Shown piece after piece: positions 17,353 through 34,118 of a DNA stretch of 64,000 nucleotides. The notes under the pieces were generated by a model. It did no database searches, was not told the DNA's origin, and worked only from the letters and a program-made list of their open reading frames with translations. A program made the position numbers and the translations under genes. This DNA comes from Moniliella sp. 'wahieum'. Lineage: Eukaryota; Basidiomycota; Moniliellomycetes; Moniliellales; Moniliellaceae. Numbering within the stretch: position 1 is the stretch's first letter; every line of letters starts with the position of its first letter. Location of the stretch: contig RSEE01000028.1 in NCBI GenBank assembly GCA_003971905.1, positions 248,001 to 312,000 on the forward strand, given 5' to 3'.

Positions 17353-20300
17353 TCAAGCATCCGAGCTGAACGGGGTACGGGGAAAAGGCAGGCTGTCGGG
17401 AGTGGCAGCGCCCAGCACGCCCTCGAGATGCAAGCCAATGTGAACAAAGAGCGTTGCATGGGGCAACGGGTTCAGATGGGCATCGTACAGGCGCAAATGG
17501 TGGTAGCCCTCGGCGAGGGAACCAATGCTGGCCATGTGCGCTGCTACCAGCTTCCGACCCGCTTCGGCCTCCTCGGAATGGGAGCGGCGACGGAGGGGGG
17601 CGAGCAGCTTGTTGGTTTGCGCATCTCGTCCTCAGCATGGGACCAGACTTGGAACCGGACAAAAGCCAGGTCCAACAGTCCGCCCGTCAAGCTCGTAGGT
17701 TTTGGTCTCCCGCCCGCGCCGACGCACCCACACAACGGCACGTCCACCGCCACCGACAGTTCCTCTTCCCAGCGCGGGTTGAAGCCGTTGCGGGAGACGA
17801 CGTGGGTACTTTGCGGTTCCGATGCTTCTCCGCTTTCGCGTCGGATCAGCTTGGCCAGCTGCCCAGCCGAGATGGCGCGCTGATCTTTCCACTGCGGCGG
17901 CGTGTGCAACGCCAGCGACACGGACGGCGACAGCAGCCCTCCTCCACACGAGGTAAGAGTTGGGCCGACTTGACCTGCACCACTAGGCGAATCCGGACGG
18001 TAGCCGTCGGCTGGTATGGGTCGCGCAACGCGCGAGGCTTGAGTACGTACCCGGCCGCTGCGTTGCGGGCAAATAGCGCATGCGACAGTTCCAAGCCCAA
18101 ATCACTCGTTTGCCAATTCAGCGCTACCTGTTGGCACCCAGCCATCCAGAACGCCAATGGGTCGGGGTTGGCCGAGGTGTGCTTTCGCCGCGCTACATTG
18201 TGCATGAGCGAGGGGTAGATGCGTACCAGGTGGTCGCGCGTGGTCCACCAACTGGGACAAATGTTTCTTGCCTCCAGCTTCGGAGAAACTCAGCATCTGT
18301 TCCGGCGGCGCGGGGTCAAACCCACGAAACTTGACACCGACCGTGTACACCAGAAGCTGGGCCAGGCGAGGCGACAAGGCTCGTTTCGACGGCCGTAGTT
18401 TTCGTCCGAGGCGACCAAAGTTCTCGTCCGAGGTTGAGGCCTCGTCAGAAGCACTGCACCTTCGCTCGACGAAGTCAATGAGGGGGTCAAGAGCAGCTCA
18501 TCGTCCCTGGCTGGAGAGGACAATGACGATTGCGATGATGGCGATGGCGATGGCGAGGGTGATGGCGAGGGTGATGGCGATAACGATGACGACGGCGATG
18601 GCGAAGGGGAGAGGGATCGAGATGAAGAGAACGAAGACAAAGGTGAGGTGTTGGGGGTCGGCGGCTGAGCTGCGTGATCGGGGACATGCTTGGCCTTGAT
18701 CAAAATCCGTCCCCTCAGTTCCCGCGGTGAGGGCAGGTTGGGCGCATGGACCGAGGAGGGCAGACGGTGGGTAAGCAAGGCCGGGCCCAACTCGGTGCGG
18801 AGGATGGAGGCAAGGCGGTCCTGTTGCGGCAGAGTATTGTGCACCTCGAGACAGAGAATCAGAGGCCAGGGGGAAGCGGCAAACGCATAGCGTGCCACGG
18901 CGCGCAACGCATCCCGAATGCCCAACCGCGTGGTCCATGTTCGACCATGTGTCACCACCGGTTCGCCCTCCGCACCGTCCCAGCAATCAATCTCGATCGA
19001 CCGTGCACCCGCTTGAAGCGCGCGAACTAACCCTTCCACCTCGCTGCCTCCGACCAGTTGGCCCGACACGAGGTAGGTGTTGTGGCTAGCCGCAATGAAG
19101 TACTCGTTCAGAGGCCGGTCCATGTCATGCGCACAGCCATCCTCCTCTGAAGAAAGCGCGGGCGGGGCAGGCTGTGGCGTGGCGAGCGCCAAAAAGCGCC
19201 TCGGGGGTGTGGGCCGACAAGCGCTGCACATGGGGGTGGGACGGGCCTTGTTGCATCTGGGGCAACGGCCAGGGTGCATATCGATCGGCTATCGCGCAAT
19301 TGTCTGCGCTCAGCAGAAAGGTGGTAAACCCATCGAGCGTCAGCAACCCCGTTGTGCGTCGGCATACTTGCGGAACAGCATGGACAGAGCACCGTCGTCC
19401 AGCATCATCTGGTATGCCAACAGGGTCAGCAACGCACATTCTTACACAACAAGACACCAGGCGGGGGAAATGGGACGAAAGCACGGACCTTTTGCTGGTG
19501 AGCCAGAAAGCTCCCAAATCTTGCTGGCTCATCCCCGCGCCTGGCTCCGACCAGGCGGCGTAGATGGCGTCCACCTCAGCCGGTGCGTGAGGAGCCGGAC
19601 AAAAACGTGGAACTGGGCCAGGTCCAGAGTACCGCCCGGCTGGTATCGGCTTGAGCAAAGAGGCCGCCAGCGTCGGCTGGGAAGTCGTGAATGCCGTTGG
19701 CGGCACAACGCACCCACCTGTGCTGCCAAGTCGAGACGCTCACCCGGAAGGAGGAGGGACCAAAACCGCAGCGTGGGCGGCCACCGCAACCTCGGTCAGC
19801 GCAAAAGCGCGGGAGGCGAAAGGGACGTGGGGGCGGTCAGCGGGGGCACCGGGCTCGGGCCGAGAAGAGCATGTTGGGCGAGCAGAAGGCTGAAGCGCAC
19901 GCCGCCAGCAGGCAAAGCTGGCGTCGACAAGGCAATGAGTGGAGCTGTTTGTCCGCAGGCGGGTCCCCGGGCCGAGCAAAAACCCGTAGCAGACAGTAAT
20001 CCACCGAGATTCATGTGCCGAAAACCGAAACTGAGCGCCTCCCGGTCTGCTGCAGCGGCTGCCCCAGCACGGAGGAAACGAGAGAGGCGATGTAACGCGG
20101 TTGGATTTTTTGCTCGCCCACGTCATCTCTCCGGCGACAGCGTCGAGACGGAAGCGGAAGAACCGCTGACGGACCTTGCGGGTGGTGACTTTAAGCATCA
20201 CTTCCCCATTTTTGGCGGAGGGCAGTCGAGGGGGGGTGGTGAGGCAACGGTGGGGTGAGAGCGGAGGAGGCAATCCGAGCATCAGAAGAACGACGACGGA

Positions 20301-24055: not shown

Positions 24056-24926
24056 GTTGTGGGGATGGGATGGGACGGGACGGAGAGGAGAGAAGAGGAG
24101 ACGAGGTGCGATGGGCTGGGCGGGGCCAGGAGACAGACGGCAGAAGAGACGCCAGGACGCGGGAGGGAGGACCAACACAGACAAGCCGGCGGGAGGCAGG
24201 GAGGCAGAAGGCGGCCGGGGCAAGGAAGGAGGCAGCCCAGCCAGGCCAGTGGGAGCACCGCGTGCTGAGCTCAGCCGGGCACTGAGGTGGAGCGCAGGCA
24301 GCCAAGCGCCACCCAATCGGCCGAGCTGGACGGTGAGCGCCCCACCGGTGACCCTCACCCGTGCGCGCCCCTGCTCACCGGTCGCGTCAGACGCAGGGCG
24401 ACACTGCCCGCGCAGACGGCCAGTGTCCGTGCGCATGCGTGGCAGCTGCCCCCGTGCCCGCCGCTTCGAGCGCGTCGCCCCACGGGGCCGCTCAGGCTGT
24501 TCCCCTGCCGACGACAGTGGTGTCGTACGAGCGGCCGCGGCGATCGGTGACCGGTGATCACATGCATCACACGCATCCATCGTCGCTTCGTCTATTACTA
24601 TTCCGCAATTCCCCTGCCCCATCCCGCAGGCGCGTGACCGAGGCACGTGACGGTCACGTGTCACCGTCCCCTTCGCCCCCGCCCCCCATCCACGGCTCCT
24701 ACCCCACCGTCCGTGCGGGGCCAGCTCAGCACAGCGCAGCACAACACAGCTCAGCACAACACAGCTCAGCTCAGCTCAGCTGCCACCTCGCTATCCCTCT
24801 CCTATCCTATGCGCACACACCTCCCCCCAGCATTCCAGCGGCATGGATCGAATTGCAATAACCTAGCGCGCCTCGTCTTCCTTGCGGTCCACTGCGGCCC
24901 TTTGCAGCGCCCAGCAGAGTGACCGC
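24056..24926. other. Promoter of the Sec14-like gene / 3' side of ATP1
   Basis: No gene. A near-perfect palindrome of two E-boxes, CACGTGACGGTCACGTG, lies at 24644-24660. A CAGCTCAG/CAGCACA microsatellite runs from about 24722 to 24782. Long G/A-rich tracts precede the Sec14-like start. Confidence 0.5.
24722..24782. repeat. CAGCTCAGCACA-type microsatellite
   Basis: Mixed 5-mer and 7-mer copies of CAGCT, CAGCACA and ACAGCTC in tandem, between the Sec14-like promoter and the 3' end of ATP1. Confidence 0.8.
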
Positions 24927-26649
24927 TTACTTGGCCAAGAAGCCCGACACATGCTCCTGCACGACCGACTTGATCTGCGCATCGAGCTCCTTGGTCATCG
25001 TGCCCTTGGCAATCTCGGCCAACAGCTCGGGCTTGGTGGTGAGGAACTCACGGAAGTTCTCCTCCCACGCCACAATTTGGTCGACGGGCACCGTGTCAAG
25101 CAGACCGTTGACACCGGCGTAGATGATCGGCACCTGGATCTCCACACCCAGCGGGTGGAACAGGCCCTGCTTGAGCAGCTCCGTCAGACGCGCGCCACGC
25201 TCCAGCGTGTAACGCGTACCGGCGTCCAAGTCCGAACCGAACTGGGCGAACGCAGCCAGCTCACGGTACTGAGCAAGGTAGAGCTTGAGCGAACCGGCAA
25301 CCGCCTTGTACACCTTGGTCTGAGCCGCCGAACCGACACGCGCGACACGGACAGACCCACGTTGACGGCAGGACGCACACCCTTGTAGAACAGCTCGGCC
25401 TCCAAGAAGATCTGGCCGTCGGTGATAGAAATGACATTGGTGGGAATAAACGCCGACACGTCACCACCCTGCGTCTCAATCACAGGCAGAGCCGTGAGCG
25501 AGCCGCCGCCAAGCGAGTCGTTCATCTTGGCCGCACGCTCGAGCAGACGAGAGTGGAGGTAGAAAACGTCACCGGGGTAGGCCTCACGACCGGGGGGACG
25601 ACGAAGCAGCAGCGACATTTGACGGTAGGCGACAGCCTGCTTCGACAGGTCATCGTACACGATCAGGGCGTGCTTGCCATTGTCACGGAACCATTCGCCA
25701 ATCGCGCAGCCCGAGAAGGGAGCGAGGTATTGAAGAGGGGCAGCCTCCGACGCGGTGGCGGCCACGACAATCGAGTACTTCATCGCGTCACGTTGCTCAA
25801 GCACCTTGACGAACTGAGCAACAGTCGAACGCTTCTGGCCCACAGCGACGTAGACACAGTACAGCTTCTTCTTCTCCTCGTCACCGTCGTTCCAGCGCTT
25901 CTGGTTGAGGATGGTGTCGAGCGCAACAGACGTCTTACCAGTCTGGCGGTCACCAATGATCAGCTCACGCTGGCCACGGCCAATGGGCACCATGGCGTCA
26001 ATGGCTTGATACCAGTGGCCATGGGCTCGTTGACCGAGCGACGCGGCAGAATACCAGGGGCCTTAAGCGAGATACGGCGGCGAGTGGTAGCGTTGATGGG
26101 GCCCTTGCCGTCAATGGGAGTGCCAAGAGCGTCCACCACACGGCCAAGCAGCTCCGGACCGACAGGCACGTCGACAATCTGGCCAGTACGCTAACCGAGT
26201 CACCCTCCTTGATGCTGCGGTCGTTACCAAAGATGGTCACACCCACATTGTCCGCCTCCAAGTTAAGGCACATGCCACGCACACCCGACTGGAACTCAAC
26301 CATCTCCTCAGCCTGCACGTTCCGCAGACCGTACACACGGGCAATACCGTCACCAATCGCTGACGAGGGAACACAAGCGTTAGTAGGTGAGGCGGTACAA
26401 GGCGGAGCGGCACTCACTCAGCACACGGCCCGTCTCCTGAACATCAAAACCGCTTTCGGCACCAGCAATGCGCTGCTCGAGGATCGAGGAGACCTCAGAC
26501 GCAGCTGCCTTGGCGGCATAGCCGCGCGCCATGGCAGGCGCCGCCGGGACGGAAGCGGCGCGAAGAGCGGCGGCCGGGGCCACGCGCAGAGCAGTGCGGG
26601 GCACAGCGCGGGCAGCGAGGCCAGCAAGACCGGCGTGACGAGCAAGCAT
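24927..26649 (-). CDS. ATP1: Mitochondrial ATP synthase subunit alpha
   Basis: Alpha subunit of the F1 part of mitochondrial ATP synthase. The first ~45 residues form an Ala/Arg-rich mitochondrial presequence ([18 protein letters not shown] ... ARGYAAKA). Hallmarks follow: [20 protein letters not shown], the P-loop [65 protein letters not shown], and the catalytic-interface Arg in [15 protein letters not shown]-terminal helical domain ends [13 protein letters not shown] 58-nt intron (26360-26417) has a perfect TACTAAC branch point and rebuilds [11 protein letters not shown]. The frame breaks near 26190, 26010 and 25340 by one base each. Length (~554 residues) is normal. Confidence 0.97.
26360..26417 (-). 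other. Intron in ATP1
   Basis: On the minus strand: donor GTGAGT, branch CTACTAAC, acceptor CGTCAG. Splicing turns the split codon A|CG into Thr and restores the universal [15 protein letters not shown] segment. Confidence 0.92.
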
Positions 26650-27271
26650 TGTTGTCAGAGCCAGGCTGGTGGGGGTGGGTAGTATGCAAGAAGCGCTGCC
26701 CAGCGCATGAGAAGAATGGTGCACGGCCGCCGCGCAAGGCACTGCCCCGCTGCCAGCGCAGCCACCGAAGCAGACCCGACACTGCCCCCCCGCTGGGTGG
26801 AGGCGGCAGAGTGCTGGCAGCTGCCGCCCGCCCGGCCGGGGAGGCAGGCCATAACACTGGCGCCGTGCGGGTCTGCGTCCAGCGTTACGTGAGCACTCAG
26901 GCTTAGAAATGGGCCGTCGAGCCCAACCCTAGCAGCAACCCTATTGCTATGTCTACCTCTTACCCCTCTTACCTCTGGCCTGTAAAGCTATAAGCTGCAT
27001 CCTTTAACCTTTACCCTGTTGCTTCTACTTCTGTTCGCTGCGTGTCGTCTGACGCTCATCGAAATACACCCTCGTCCCGGCCGAGAGTCAGAAAGATGGG
27101 GCCAGGTGGGCCGAAAGTGTGCAGGCCATCACCTCGGGCTCTCGCTGGATCCAAACCACAAGCACAAGCACAAAATCCATCTATCTACAAGAAAGTAATG
27201 GGTTGTTGCATCCCGGACACGCAGAAGAAGATCGATGCTTTTGGAGGCGAACAAGAAGGCCGAAACGAAGC
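26650..27271. other. Promoter of ATP1 / 3' side of SEC61
   Basis: No gene supported. The half next to ATP1 is G/C-rich; around 26905-27040 it turns pyrimidine-rich (CTACCTCTTACCCCTCTTACC). No E-box or obvious repeat was found. Confidence 0.4.
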
Positions 27272-28703
27272 TTAGCCGATCAGGTCGCCCAACGCGTTCA
27301 TCTCGGGACCACCCGATTCGCGCAAACCCATTTCAAAGTACGAGTAGATGGTCGTCACAGCCATTAGGATGCCTGTGCCCGAGCCAAACGCGCCAATCAA
27401 GTCGGCCGCGACTGAGAGCGCACCAATCGTGGCGCCACCCCAGGCAGCGGCAGTGGGGATGATTTTCTTCAGTTCCTTGTACATGGAGCCATCGCGGTGG
27501 CCGGCCATGACCATGCCATTGTCCTTCAGCTGCTTGGCCACCTCCCGTGGGCCCGATCCCGACACGTCAATCCACGCCTTGGAAATCACCGCACACATGA
27601 CCAAAGTGAAGGCGACATTGACCAGGGTGTGGATCGGGTCCTTGGCCGCGTCGGACAGGGACGTTGGTGGAGAGAGGTAGTAGGACAAGCCGCCAACGGC
27701 ATGCAGCGGCGAGTCGTCGAGCGGCTCCCACACACCCAGCAGACGCACAAGCAAGTGCGACGGGAAGCGCGAGGAGAGCATTTGCGAAATGATAAACACA
27801 TTGCTGGTCAAGGTACTGGTGAGCATGATGGGCATGTTGGATGTATAGAAGAGCTTGACGGGGTACCGCCCCTGCTGGCCGCGGAAGCGAACCGATTTGA
27901 TCGGGATCTCAACGCGGAAGCCTTGGAGGTAAATAACGGCAAGGAAGACCACAAGGGTGGCGAGGAGGTTCATCACGTTGGGCAAACGGTCGCGGAAAAA
28001 GGCCTCCTTTAGCGCACGAGTCTTGTCGTTCCAGGTAAAGAGAAGGTGCACCAGGGCAACCAGGGCGCCCTCAAACTCGGGACCACGACCAGTGTTAACC
28101 GTGGTGGGGCTAAACGCCTTCCATACAATGCTCTCGCAAATGTTGGTAGCAATAAACAGGCTGATTCCCGATCCCAGGCCGTACCCCTTGACCAACAGCT
28201 CGTCCAACAGAATCACAATGAGTCCAGCAACGACAAGCTGGAGATGAGCAGCAGGCACACCCGGCGCCGAGCTGCGAGGGGGGGCCATACAGACCGGACA
28301 GAACGTATACCGTAGCCTGACCGAGCGAGATGAGAATGGCAAAAAGTTTCTGAGCGCCACCAAAGAGGGCACGGTCCTCCTTGAGGCTAAAGTCAACCTC
28401 AATGAGGTTGGCGCCAGCGAGCAGCTGCATGATCATGCCCGAGGTGATGATGGGACTGATTCCGAGTTCCATTAGTGTCCCGCGATTGGAAGCAAGGATG
28501 ACACGCATCCAGTAGAGTGGGTCGGAACTGTCGGAGGACATGATGCCATAGAGAGGGATCTGCGACGAGACGAGAAAGATGCCGAGCACAATGGCGGTCC
28601 ACAGCACTCGACTGTGAAAGGGCACCTTGCGTTCGGGGGCAGCAACCTCAGGAAGGACCCCCATAAAGGGACGCACCAGCGCCAAGAAGCGGAACGAGCT
28701 CAT
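27272..28703 (-). CDS. SEC61: Protein translocon subunit Sec61 alpha
   Basis: Pore subunit of the endoplasmic reticulum translocon, a protein with ten membrane spans. It opens [20 protein letters not shown], the strongly conserved Sec61 N-terminus. Next come the plug/TM2 region ([40 protein letters not shown]), the gating loops ([40 protein letters not shown]), and [20 protein letters not shown]. The C-terminal span ends [20 protein letters not shown]. The frame is interrupted near 28270-28290 after [11 protein letters not shown], by one or two missing bases; the 3' part is open for over 1 kb. Length ~476 residues is normal. A CACGTG sits 9 bases before the start, with two more within 180 bases (28824 and 28875). 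Confidence 0.97.
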
Positions 28704-29170
28704 CCTCTCCCCACGTGCGAATCTGAGGCCAGGGTCGGGAGTATGGGGTGGTGATGGTAGGCAACCGACTTCCTTCGCAGTCATGCATCATGCCATCCTG
28801 CAAGGAGCCACACTGCGCCCCACCACGTGGCACATTTGGCGCTGTACATATTCTGCCAACCCTACTGCTGCGGTCACGTGCTGGACCCTCTCCGGTTTTG
28901 GCTGGCCATGGCCTCCCTCGGGCGAAAGTGGACGTGGCGGCGTGCACGCGTACACATCGATGGTCCACTGGGATGCATTTCGTGGGGAAGCGAGCGAGGG
29001 AGAAAACAGGGTAGGACGTCTTGGTCCGGACGAGGGAGGAGAAAGATGGCTTCCAGGAAACCAGAACAGGGCGAATCAACGAGTCTTGTGTATTGTTCAT
29101 TGCGCATTGTGCATTTGGCAAACGTTAGCCATCACCGTGCAAACAAAAAGGCCAACGAAACTGGCCAGGC
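28704..29170. other. Promoter of SEC61 / 3' side of epoxide hydrolase
   Basis: No gene. Three CACGTG E-boxes stand at 28712, 28824 and 28875, upstream of SEC61 on its own strand. The rest is unremarkable. Confidence 0.5.
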
Positions 29171-30768
29171 TCACAAATGGGCAGTAGCGTCCTTCGACCA
29201 GGCCTTGGCCCGCTCCTCATCCCACACACCCTCGCGATGGAGGAGGCCATGGACATGCTCCTCCGGGTCAGTGCGGAGGAAACCGGAGGGGGAAAAAGCA
29301 GCACGGATGTGGCTGATGAGGATGTCGGGGACCTCGATAGCAGGAAAGTGGCCCCCAACCTCGGCCTGGGCGGCCCAGACCAAATTGCTTTGGGTTTCGA
29401 GCCAGCGCAGATTGGCTGCATCATCTCGCCAGGAAAACGACTGAAGGCGAGGGGTTGTTTTACATAGAGTGCCGAGTGGGACACGAGCGCTGCAGCATCG
29501 GGGTTAAGGCTGTATGGCAAGAGACTGGTGCCGATACAGCCAGTCTGCCAATAAAGCGTCATGAGGGACAAATACTTGGTCAGCCCCAATCGCGGGCGAC
29601 GCTTCTCGATCGCACCCATTGCCACCAGGCTAGGTTTGTCCGTCAACAAGGGATACGCGATGGCGCTGGTGTACGACAAAAGACTGCGGGTGAGTCAAGC
29701 AGAGCATGCATCACCGCCCCCGGCCGATACTTTTGGATGTAGTATACGCCCATCTTCTTCACGAGTGTAAGTCTGGCCAGCCACAGAGATGAGCAAGGTT
29801 GGTAAAGGAGTCCTGATCGCCTGACAGAAAAAGACAAAAACGTACTTCTCGACTTGGTTTTGGTGTGACCTTACCTGCCTTGGCCTGGAGCGGCGCTTTG
29901 CCCGAGCTCTTACCTTGATTTTTGCCTTGGCTTTGGTCTTACCCCCACCCGAAGGCCGGGGATGATGAGGCCCAGGGAAAAAGTTGAGATGGACAGCTTT
30001 AACAGCGGTGCCGGGCAGATTGGCAAGGACACGGGCATGCAAAGAGCCCCAGTCGGTGCCATGCACAGCATAGCCGGACCAAATACTGCCGCTGCCTCCT
30101 TGCCCGTAGCCAAGGCCGTACATCAGCGCATTGAGAATACGCGCATAACCAAACATGTCCCCGATGTATGTTTGCTTGAAGGCGGAGGGGTGCTCCATAC
30201 GAACCCAGGAAGGGATGGAATGACGACATGGAATGCAGGGTCAGAAGGATCGCCTGTAGGTTCAACGGTTAGTGGGAGGGGGCTAGTGGAAGTAAAGCGG
30301 CTGGCAAGAGGGGCGAGCGAGAGATACATACTTGGGTTGGTTAGCGGCTCAATCAGCTCCCAAAACTCGAAGAAAGATGAGGGCCAGCCATGCAGGAGGA
30401 GGAGCGGAATAGCATCTGGGCGGCGGGAGCGGCGATGAACAAAGTGCAGCTGGTGGCACCAGTCGATATCCGCCACATAGTGGGGGTGCTGTTCCAACGT
30501 AGTCTGGAAGGCGTCAAAGTCAAAGATGCGCCCAGTAGGCCAACTGATCCCGTAACAGCGTCGGGTCGGGCGCCTGCTGCCGAGAGGGCATGTCGGACGG
30601 CAAAATTTCCCAGGGCAGCGTCCGGTCCGCCGAAGCGAGGCGGGCAATGGCCGGGTGCAGTCGTAAGCGCAGATCGTCGACCATGCGCGGGGAGGCCACC
30701 TCCGGCTCGAACGGCTTGAGCCTCCGCACAGGGGCACAGGCTCCGAGAGTGCCTTCTCTGTTGTCCAT
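29171..30768 (-). CDS. Epoxide hydrolase, alpha/beta-hydrolase fold (EPHX1-like)
   Basis: Predicted enzyme that opens epoxides to diols. The N-terminal epoxide-hydrolase domain (VRRLKPFEPEVASPRMVDDL; DFDAFQTTLEQHPHYVADID) is followed by the oxyanion motif HGWPSSFFEFWELIEPL. YIGDMFGYARILNALMYGLG and the nucleophile elbow VHGTDWGSLHARV (Asp) come next. The lid reads KYLSLMTLYWQTGCIGTSLL, and the catalytic His lies in EVGGHFPAIEVPDIL. Two introns are clear: 30254-30331 (GTATGT...CTACAG, rejoining TNP|SDPSDPAFHV) and 29821-29874 (GTAAGG...CTGTCAG). Frame breaks lie near 30530, 30190, 29780, 29700, 29600 and 29420. A Lys/Arg-rich insert (KTKAKAKIKVRARAKRR) before the second intron is unusual. No membrane anchor is seen at the start chosen. 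Confidence 0.88.
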
Positions 30769-31685
30769 TTGTCGACCATGGCGGCTGGTGTGGTGGTGGC
30801 GCGGGAGGGGGGGCGACGAACGATCAACCCAGAAGGGTTCAGCCTGAACGGCAAGGCTGGCCTGATCCAAAGCGCACGGTGGCGCTTCGGCTTTGCCCCA
30901 CACTGAGGCGCCGGACGAGCCGAGGGTTACGTAAAGCCGCCGCTGCCCCTAATGCATTCGGGGGAGGGTAGGCGGCCGCGGAGCTGGGTGGGGAGACTTG
31001 TGTGGCCAGCCGAGCCCTCCGCCACCACACCGCCACCACAGCCGGGTCGGCCGGAATGCATAATTGCGCAACCGAATGCCGCGCATGGCTAGCGCCGCGA
31101 GTGGCGTGTCAACTATCAAGTTCCCACGCTCCTCTGCACCAATGGGAACGTGGAAACCATATCAAATTTCGCCTCTGATCAGTATCACCTGCAACAACTA
31201 CTAGTAAGTTTCCCTCTCAGAACCATTGCCATTAACCACAACCTGGGGAATATTGGCCACATCCATGCGGAGAGATAACTAGGCGTTTGGCCCTGGGGAC
31301 ATGCTCCTTCGCGCTCACGCTCCCGCGCTTTGCTGCGACATGCAGCTTGGGCGCCTATGGACCCGATTACGAATGGAGAGAAGGAAAAGTACAAAAAGGG
31401 CTTATTCAGGAGTGTCCCGGTAGGAAGGAGGGGAAAATGAAGGTTGCCTCACCTCTGCAGATCAGAGACCGGCACGATCTCAAAGACAGGGGGTGAGGGC
31501 GATGGGGGGTAGTCGAGGGGTAACTTGTAAACTGTGAGATGGAAGGAAAAGTCACAGAAATGAAGGTGACATGAAAGACGTAAAGGGTGAGTCGAAACGG
31601 GGGATAACGTGTAAAGGAACCATGAGGAGAGAACGAGGAACCAGACCGGGGAGATATGGAAGACCGTGACGAAAGGGGAAGAGAA
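30769..31685. other. Intergenic region epoxide hydrolase-MAP kinase
   Basis: No supported gene. It is GC-rich next to the hydrolase promoter and becomes purine-rich (GGAAGGAGGGGAAAATG) towards the 3' side of the kinase gene. Confidence 0.45.
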
Positions 31686-33740
31686 TTAGATACTCTGGGC
31701 CCCAGGATCCTTCACCTCCTCCACTTCAAGCTCGCGGGTAAGCTTGAGACATGCGTCCACATTCGGTTCGGCGGCGGTCATGACCAGCGCGGGTGTACGA
31801 CGGACAAACTTGGCACTCGCGTCCTGAGATGCCAGCATCACCCCTGGCTCTGCTTCCGCGACGGGGTGGTCGCCCCGTACCACAGCCTGCGGTCAGGATT
31901 AACTCGGCCGATCCGTCCGAGAAACGGGGGGGAGCGCTGTCTCCTTCCTCTGCTGCTGCCAGCCTCTCGTCCAATACAGGGGCCGAAACCGCAGTCGCGT
32001 GCCGTGAGACGTGCGGGCTGAAGTGTAGCGACGCGAAGTCCATGGTCATGGCCTGATTCTTGGGCAAGAGCTGACCACTCGGCATGCATCTCCCGCGCCT
32101 CGGCTTGGAACGCGGCGATAAAGCCCGAGGGGCACCTGCTAAACTCGACCTCCCCAAATGCAGAGAAAGCAGAGGAGGTGTCCACTGTGCCGAACTTTCA
32201 TGGTATGCTGCAAGCCAGGGGTGCTGAAGAGCGTCTTGAGCCGAAATCCGCTCGAGGGATCCCAACGAAGACATTGGCGGATCAAGTCAACGGCCAAAGG
32301 GTCGGTATCGGGGAACTGTGCTTCAAGTGAGGGCTCGCCGAGGACCCCATGACAAGACGATGCGTTGGGCCGATTGCGAGGAGGAATGGGCGAGCAAGTC
32401 GGGGACGGGCTACCAATCACGTTGTAGATCCGTGATAGTTGATCGACGTAGTCCTTGCCAGGGAACAAGGGTTGACCTAGAAGGAGCTCAGCGAGGATGC
32501 ACCCTACCGACCACATATCCATCTCGGGGCCGTAGCCCTCGCGGAACAGGAGCAGAATCTCGGGCGAACGGTACCAGCGCGTGGCCACATGGCCAGACAA
32601 GGGTTCGCCGGGGTAAAAGAGGCGGGTGGGCTGGTCACTGTGTGCACGCGCAGCTTGCCTGGATGCCAACCAGGCGGAGAACAGCGGAAACGGGTTCATT
32701 GTCGGGGCAACGAGAGCATGGAGAAGAAAGGTGCTGTGCGCTAGCGGCATGTTGCAGGGCTGGACTTGCTTTGGTAGAAAGAGAGGGCGTGTCGGACCAA
32801 GCGCGAGCCAACCATAGTCGCAAATGCGTAACGCACAGTCTGAATTGACTAGCAGGTTGCTCGGCTTCAGATCCCGATGGACAATGTGGGCAGCGTGTAT
32901 GTACCGTACACCGCGCAATAGTTGGACGGCAAAATATTGGAGGTGAGCGTTGCTTAACGATTGACGGGAGCGGATGATCTGCAAAAGGTTGGCTTCCGAC
33001 GGGGCCATGACCAAGTAGATTTCACCCAACTCAACAAAGGTAGCGTCAAAATCGAGAAGGACAGTGGATTGTCGCACATGCTCAGGTGACGCAGGATGGC
33101 AACTTCACGAAGTGCATGGCGAGCGACACCACCATGTTTGAAAATGCGGCTCATTTTCTTCAGGCTAAAAAAACGAGTCAGTGCGGGGGCTCAAGCCCTT
33201 GCGCCAAGAGAGATCATTGTTACTCACGCGACCGTCACGTTGAGAACCGAATCGTGAGCCAGAGCTACACAGCCATAGGAGCCAACACCGAGCGCACGAA
33301 CGAATTTGTAGCGCTGGTGGACGTGGAAAGGGACGCCAAGGCACTCAAATGTGTGGTAACCATGCTGGCGAGTCGGTCGGGGAAAAAGTGGGGTACAATT
33401 GGCCGGGAACACTCACGGGTGTGGGCGCCGCCCGGGGTTGGACGGCAGCATCGGATACACCTCGCCTGCGGCCGACAACAGGAGCACGAACAGAAACTGG
33501 TGAACAGGATGATGGAGGTGGGATGACTGCAGGGGCAGCAGCAGTGGGGGGGGCAGGCGCTGCACTCATGGTAGGCAAGGGGGGGAGTGGGGGAGGCACG
33601 TCGAGCGCGCTGAAGGGGGCAGCAGGTGAAAGGGGCACAGGTGGGGGCGTATGAACAAGGCGATGAATACGGCGCTCACGGCGCCCACGGCGGGGCAAAA
33701 GCGGCGGAGCAGGAGTGAAGGGCGGTGGTGAGAGAGGCAT
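31686..33740 (-). CDS. Atypical Slt2/ERK-like MAP kinase with Ser-Gly-His instead of TxY
   Basis: A CMGC kinase most like fungal Slt2/Mpk1 MAP kinases. After a Pro/Ala-rich N-terminus of ~110 residues the kinase opens with HQRYKFVRALGVGSYGCVAL (glycine loop), then HALREVAILRHLS, VRYIHAAHIVHRDLKPSNLL (catalytic loop intact), ICDYG-LARAWSD (DYG for DFG) and VATRWYRSPEILLLF. The MAPK signature VGCILAELLLGQPLFPGKDY and a C-lobe ending RISAQDALQHPWLAAYH follow. Directly before VATRWY, where MAP kinases have Thr-x-Tyr, this protein reads GEPLSGH. About 50 extra Ser/Ala-rich residues stand between DYG and this point. Frame breaks lie near 33400, 33060, 32830, 32400 and 32250, but the frame around SGH is open for 300 codons. 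An intron is likely near 33170-33230. The C-terminal ~150 residues are unconserved. Confidence 0.85.
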
Positions 33741-34118
33741 GACAGGTGGGGGATGACGGGGGATGGCGGTGGTGGAAGTGGTATTAATGCGCACGCGAGA
33801 TAGGAAAAAGAGGGCGCTTCTAATGTTGTGGCAAGGAGGGAGATGGTCCACGCGCGCGCGTGTGCGCGCAGGCGCGTACTGCACAGTTTTTCAGCATCCC
33901 AGCAAGCGAGTGCGGTTTGTGTGGGCGCTACGTGCCATGTGAAATCTGAGATTCTAAGATCCGACCAGGCTGGCCTCTGGCCCGTGGCCCGCTCGGCTAG
34001 ACGTGGGTTTTGTAGGGCGCTGCCCTGTGTTGCGGTGTGGGGTGTCTACCCATCGACTTCTCAGCACCGAGCGGGACCATCGATCGCCATCGACCAACCA
34101 ACTGCATCACGGCCGTCG

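Follow-up and report, generated by a model that had tools for sequence, protein, structure and literature searches.

The window analysed here, a stretch of 64,000 nucleotides, carries on its minus strand a gene for a MAP kinase (MAPK)-like protein in which Ser-Gly-His (S-G-H) is read where MAPKs have Thr-x-Tyr (TxY), the motif whose dual phosphorylation is the textbook hallmark of these enzymes. Other proteins encoded in the window include Ded1/DDX3-like and Sec61-like ones, as judged by comparison with the PDB. The three codons concerned, TCT-GGC-CAT, lie immediately 5' of VATRWYRSPEILL. They agree with the sequence-only reading of this DNA, which had reported S-G-H in place of TxY, and the catalytic loop HRDLKPSN, the DYG that replaces DFG and the MAPK segment GKDYVDQLS were likewise all found as that reading had described them (Table 1). 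The same reading had placed the kinase in an open frame of 312 codons. This frame exists (32139-33077), but it is only part of the gene, as kinase sequence extends on both sides of it: upstream, the N-lobe is encoded in other frames, and downstream, a further frame holds the last kinase helices (ERISAQDALQHPWL). The kinase sequence starts at about 33360, is interrupted by an intron-like break of 63 nt, and then continues downstream in another frame. The 63-nt stretch was present in the window gene and in its copy on contig C11, with none in the copies on C21 and C36, suggesting the gain or loss of an intron after duplication.

Table 1. Features of the kinase gene, in window coordinates
Feature	Positions	Strand	Basis or remark
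Kinase N-lobe, first coding part (GYHTFECLGVPFHVHQ...GVGSYGCVALAHDSVLNVTVA)	33228..33360	-	tblastn with the C21 protein
63-nt intron-like stretch, GTGAGT...TTTTTTTAG	33165..33227	-	predicted; insertion relative to the C21 open frame
Remaining kinase gene (rest of N-lobe, C-lobe, tail)	31686..33164	-	frame broken by small losses; 3' end approximate
Catalytic loop HRDLKPSN	32856..32879	-	read directly
DYG replacing DFG	32811..32819	-	DY in every copy (12); the window row of the codon alignment is the only one with an unreadable Gly
Extended Ser/Pro-rich activation segment	32598..32810	-	predicted to be disordered (C21 model)
S-G-H at the TxY position	32589..32597	-	read directly; aligned to Mps1 via the C21 protein
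P+1 loop VATRWYRSPE	32559..32588	-	read directly
MAPK-type segment GKDYVDQLS	32433..32459	-	read directly
Common-docking motif region, HPWLAAYHESSAQWTPP, acidic pattern lost	32170..32225 (approximate)	-	codon alignment
Upstream Arg-rich motif RRGRRERRIHRLVHTPPP, D-motif/NLS-like with TP site	33639..33692	-	ATG of its frame at 33740-33738

Paralogues of the kinase in the same genome

A DNA search of the assembly to which the window belongs (69.5 Mb in 223 contigs, C28 being the window contig) gave matches at 98% on C11, at 78% on C21 and C36, and at 73-75% on C25, C1, C13 and C30 and at second places on C21 and C36. The copies at C28:350k and C11:185k were recovered by protein search. The family thus comprises 12 copies in six allele-like pairs, that is, six loci; this number is a minimum, since only the best candidates were scored by the search and the weaker protein-search matches were covered in part. 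The window gene, which the sequence-only reading had taken for one odd paralogue, is a genuine MAPK-like gene without TxY, but it belongs to a family of at least six loci with S-G-H, S-S-Y or S-S-F.

The copy on C21 has an uninterrupted frame of 516 codons, open across the kinase domain, which contains GEPLSGHVATRWYRSPEILL and CDYG as well as the long activation segment; its last part is possibly out of frame, and the limits of the tail are approximate. Direct translation gave S-G-H in the copies on C28 (the window gene), C11, C21, C36, C25, C1 and C30, so that this motif is due neither to chance nor to a sequencing error. It also gave S-S-Y at C28:350k and C11:185k and S-S-F at C36:144k, and 10 of the 12 motifs were thereby read both directly and in the codon alignment. 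The direct frame was broken at the motif in the C13 copy and in the second C21 copy, for which the codon alignment gives S-G-? and S-S-F, respectively. In the codon-aligned rows, the Thr position is occupied by Ser in all 12 copies, and the third position by His (seven copies), Tyr (two) or Phe (two), with one unreadable. Thr-x-Tyr is absent from the 11 fully readable copies, and the twelfth is the one with S-G-?. Counted by locus, four carry S-G-H, one S-S-F and one S-S-Y. A chance open frame was rejected as the source of the kinase reading. These data establish a real, conserved and small family of MAPK-like kinases without TxY, for which the mechanism proposed below would be plausible.

Window positions 27271-33781 and C21:390-397k are collinear: both carry Sec61, two more conserved blocks and the kinase. 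C28/C11 and C21/C36 therefore look like segmental or whole-genome duplicates. Upstream of the kinase, we found an [VI]HTPP motif in 10 of the 12 copies (not in C25 and C11b), preceded by an Arg-rich run in nine of these 10, the second C21 copy being the exception. The form of the motif varies, from the one listed for the window in Table 1 to an RRSRRPIHTPP type elsewhere. Only in three copies (C13, C28b and C36b) are the motif and the N-lobe found in the same open frame. Elsewhere, C21 and the window among them, motif and kinase are in different frames; in the window, that of the motif spans 33345-33890. The search expression for [VI]HTPP had one further match in the window, LHTPP at 17909, and the upstream counts are raw counts. 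The kinases are likely to have an N-terminal extension with this Arg-rich motif. Next to a Thr-Pro site, the motif has the look of a D-motif for MAPK docking or of a nuclear signal, a putative function in either case.

Frame breaks and selective constraint

As compared with the C21 open frame, the kinase region has eight small losses in the window copy, three in C11 and nine in C36, the last also having two short insertions. The loss at residue 1 is common to the window copy and C11, and no other is common among the three copies. C28 and C11 differ by 14 losses of 1-2 nt across the kinase gene of 1.68 kb, a rate of 8.3 per kb, and by three across the Sec61 block of 1.49 kb, or 2.0 per kb. The next gene block had 6.8 per kb, a short intergenic stretch 4.9 and two longer ones 11.5-13.1. 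The gene for ATP synthase alpha in the window (24300-26400, minus strand) is also split between frames, its nucleotide-binding domain (Pfam, 4.5e-77) being directly followed by the C-terminal domain in another frame (Pfam, 2.8e-42), a sign of uncorrected small indels in the window contig. The frame breaks of the window are most likely assembly error for the most part, and part of the 1-2 nt losses between C28 and C11 must be true polymorphism; single kinase copies may have suffered recent damage. Small indels, which had been put aside as a cause of S-G-H, indeed cannot account for it, but they do account for the limits of the open frame and for the residues read in the activation-segment insert.

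The kinase domain is under purifying selection and is not decaying. Over this domain, the NG86 estimate of dN/dS was 0.052 for C21 and C28 (dS 1.13, 345 codons) and 0.055 for C21 and C11, and a ratio of 0.05 at a dS of about 1.1 between the window gene and that on C21 indicates selection rather than decay. Among 66 pairs, nine had an undefined (saturated) dS, and the defined ratios between loci ranged from 0.045 to 0.233. Over 343 codons, the C28 and C11 alleles differ by six synonymous changes and one nonsynonymous change (binomial P = 0.0013 when three quarters is taken as the nonsynonymous share). In the 12-copy codon alignment, GxGSYG, VAxKK, the LRE of helix C, HRDLKP[S/T]N, CDY(G), the Arg of LAR, and RWYR were kept in every readable row. 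A loss of catalytic residues of the kind expected of an Mlp1-type pseudokinase was not seen, as VAxKK, HRD and DYG were present in every readable copy. The hinge of the family reads MAPSEA[N/T]L, in contrast to the ELMEADL type, and the common-docking motif HDxxDEP was absent in 12 of 12 copies, with HESSA, YESSA, AESSA, HTAPV/HTASV or an RLSSA-type sequence in its place.

Activation segment and probable kinship with Slt2/Mps1

DxG and the motif are 72 residues apart in C21, 78 in C1, 55 in the S-S-Y form and 58 in the S-S-F form. The five canonical kinases measured in the same genome have 17, 20 and 17 (TEY), 20 (SEY) and 9 (TGY), and C21 thus differs from the three TEY kinases by 52-55 more residues. 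The sequence-only reading had noted extra residues at this place; their length is real, given the 72 residues from DYG to SGH in C21, but the residues themselves, WLALGPTRP..., are largely out of frame, owing to a loss at the Gly of DYG and two more before SGH in the window copy. The C11 allele reads GLARAWSD at the same place. An in-frame intron as the source of the extra residues was rejected, since C21 reads straight through the activation segment. The insert evolves faster than its surroundings, with a C21/C11 dN of 0.117 as compared with 0.039 and 0.054 in the flanks. The 402 residues of the C21 kinase region were modelled with AlphaFold from an alignment of 16 rows, all of them from the same genome; the model had a mean pLDDT of 78.2 and a pTM of 0.77. 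Its core is confident, residues 173-235 and 379-402 fall below a pLDDT of 50, and the insert is predicted to be disordered.

PDB sequence matches, the AlphaFold model and Foldseek all assign a MAPK-like kinase core and fold to the C21 protein. Its top PDB sequence match is Mps1 (best matches 8h59, 5z33 and 8ztc), and Foldseek ranked Mps1 5z33 first for the model (E = 2.2e-30); the best 60 of 2421 PDB matches include Mps1, MAPK11, MAPK14 and a 'Mitogen-activated protein kinase 6' from a plant or animal. In the alignment with Mps1, the C21 protein has S237-G238-H239 opposite T182-E183-Y184 (numbering of 8h59_A). The family thus appears closest to the cell-wall-integrity MAPKs Slt2/Mps1 (Mpk1) by sequence and modelled fold, a placement taken from the best matches and not from the tree, and the window and C21 genes also have VATRWYR and DYVDQL in common with them. 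It differs from Slt2/Mps1 in having S-x-[H/Y/F] for TEY, DYG for DFG, a MAPSEANL hinge and no common-docking pattern, and in that separate TEY kinases of Slt2 type exist in the same genome. These canonical Slt2-type kinases, which the sequence-only reading had suggested looking for, were found at C92/C37 (best PDB match Mps1, 470.7 bits) and at C116, which groups with C92 at 97%.

The other canonical MAPKs are a Fus3-like TEY kinase on C9, a Hog1/p38-like TGY kinase at C34/C145 (best PDB match p38) and a SEY kinase at C46/C35. In an IQ-TREE analysis of 17 codon-aligned rows (insert columns excluded, the C9 row partial, and the five canonical MAPK rows all from the same genome), the family was monophyletic and not nested with C92/C116. 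It was split from the five canonical rows with 100% support and a stem of 0.975 substitutions per site, and the S-G-H genes were split from the rest of the family at 70%; branching among the canonical MAPKs was weak (58). The S-E-Y MAPKs form a separate and apparently duplicated lineage (C46:408k, C35:99k, C27:623k and C5:1176k), the C46 member of which joins the Fus3-like kinase in the tree at 91%. Further kinases at C28:374k, C21:429k and C36:323k and on C128, C27 and C5 are, by eye and as far as readable, of Hog1, Slt2 or SEY type. Apart from kinases, the genome gave eight matches to microbial-type rhodopsin (PF01036; on C8, C39, C15, C43 and C23), none of which adjoins any of the seven guanylate cyclase matches. 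The flagellar families RIB43A and IFT46 gave no match, and neither did the controls run with them.

Mode of activation

Variation at the TxY position is known from other fungi. A MAPK survey covering 173 fungi gives the variants TTY, TIY, TNY, THY, TSY, KGY, TQY, SEY and SDY (PMC4769017); the present family resembles these in that the position varies, and is unlike them in that all nine keep Tyr and none is S-G-H or S-S-F. A paper on the Cryptococcus paralogues Cpk2/Mpk2 treats the motif in one general passage (PMC11253600). No description of an S-G-H/S-S-Y/S-S-F family was recognised among the matches listed in the open-licence literature. In animals, the S-E-G motif of ERK3/ERK4 similarly lacks the Tyr and has one Ser where the Thr would stand, a likeness that holds for the four S-G-H loci and, with an extra Ser, for the S-S-F locus, but not for S-S-Y. 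This likeness is one of motif. Ser189, the single Ser in the S-E-G of ERK3, is reported in a passage of PMC10191626 to be phosphorylated by PAKs. For Slt2, a passage of PMC9106771 states that phosphorylation of T190 promotes high activity, and that T190A is far more harmful than Y192F, the effect of which is mild.

The kinases of the family are probably switched on otherwise than ordinary MAPKs. A different mode of activation, already put forward in the sequence-only reading, is retained as the best inference for a gene of MAPK type that lacks TxY, TEY MAPKs being present elsewhere in the genome. The scaffold offered there as the alternative finds no such backing: nothing points to a dead scaffold, in view of the catalytic motifs in every readable copy and the purifying selection. 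We prefer the hypothesis, with a probability of roughly 0.55, that these genes, at six or more paralogous loci, form a divergent MAPK subfamily, the members of which would be active kinases gated by a single Ser and released from switching by a dual-specificity MAPKK. The retention of Ser together with its Arg partners, the replacement of Tyr by His or Phe at five of the six loci and the loss of the docking pattern suggest that at most one Ser phosphate is needed and that MAPKK docking is not relied upon. Phosphorylation of the Ser would come about through autophosphorylation or through a second Ser kinase, phosphate on the Tyr would be dispensable, and the insert and tail would regulate the kinase, perhaps under the control of canonical MAPKs; a purely structural role of the Ser is conceivable as well. 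Several observations count against this hypothesis: the S-S-Y locus keeps both phosphorylatable positions; the Arg residues are conserved in MAPKs generally and are thus no proof of a phosphate site; the MAPSEA[N/T]L hinge together with DYG for DFG means that the use of ATP might be altered; the tree places the family on its long stem outside the canonical MAPKs, not with Slt2; and the upstream motif is in frame with the N-lobe in three copies only.

One explanation, which seems to us rather unlikely, is that the S-x-[H/Y/F] loop is active without any phosphate, and that activity is set by the abundance of the kinase or by binding of its insert and tail. The variation at the Tyr position (H, Y or F) and the lost docking pattern make MAPKK input look dispensable, and the insert is long and, in the model, disordered; however, Ser is invariant in 12 of 12 copies and the two residues after it are not, pointing to a specific role of the Ser. 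Mlp1/Kdx1, presumably the K-G-Y kinase of S. cerevisiae, is a fungal Slt2 paralogue as the present family may be. That family members are likewise non-catalytic partners, binding targets of the Slt2 pathway, is unlikely. Such a role has precedents in passages that describe Mlp1, the yeast paralogue of Slt2, as a catalytically inactive pseudokinase (PMC9106771, PMC8836261 and PMC3898958) and in one that records a K-G-Y MAPK in S. cerevisiae (PMC4769017), but here the catalytic motifs are intact and have been kept at six loci under purifying selection. We consider it improbable that an ordinary MAPKK phosphorylates the Ser, with the missing Tyr only lowering the output of a conventional cascade member with a tuned loop: the two phosphorylatable positions of the S-S-Y locus would fit this, whereas the docking pattern lost in every copy and the His or Phe in place of Tyr at most loci argue against it. 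A decaying pseudogene, with S-G-H and the frame breaks as degeneration, is highly improbable and largely contradicted, for although the window, C11 and C36 copies have small losses relative to C21, one of them common to the window copy and C11, and the losses are denser in the kinase gene than in the Sec61 block, C21 is open with an identical S-G-H, dN/dS is 0.05 with allele differences nearly all synonymous, the remaining losses differ among the copies, and the nearby ATP synthase alpha is frame-split as well with both Pfam domains strong.

The single-Ser hypothesis could be carried further, to a MAPK class uncoupled from MAPKKs that has one Ser for TxY, a disordered Ser/Pro-rich segment as its regulator and an Arg-rich, D-motif-like HTPP tail at the N-terminus that would make its members clients of canonical MAPKs, in a duplicated MAPK-to-MAPK relay; we regard this extended version as doubtful. 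As a selected and duplicated family in which the Ser has been kept, the Tyr has been lost at five of six loci and the docking motif is missing, these kinases are a natural test of the roles of the Tyr phosphate and of MAPKK docking. With catalytic motifs that look intact, the family would complement animal ERK3/4 and yeast Mlp1.
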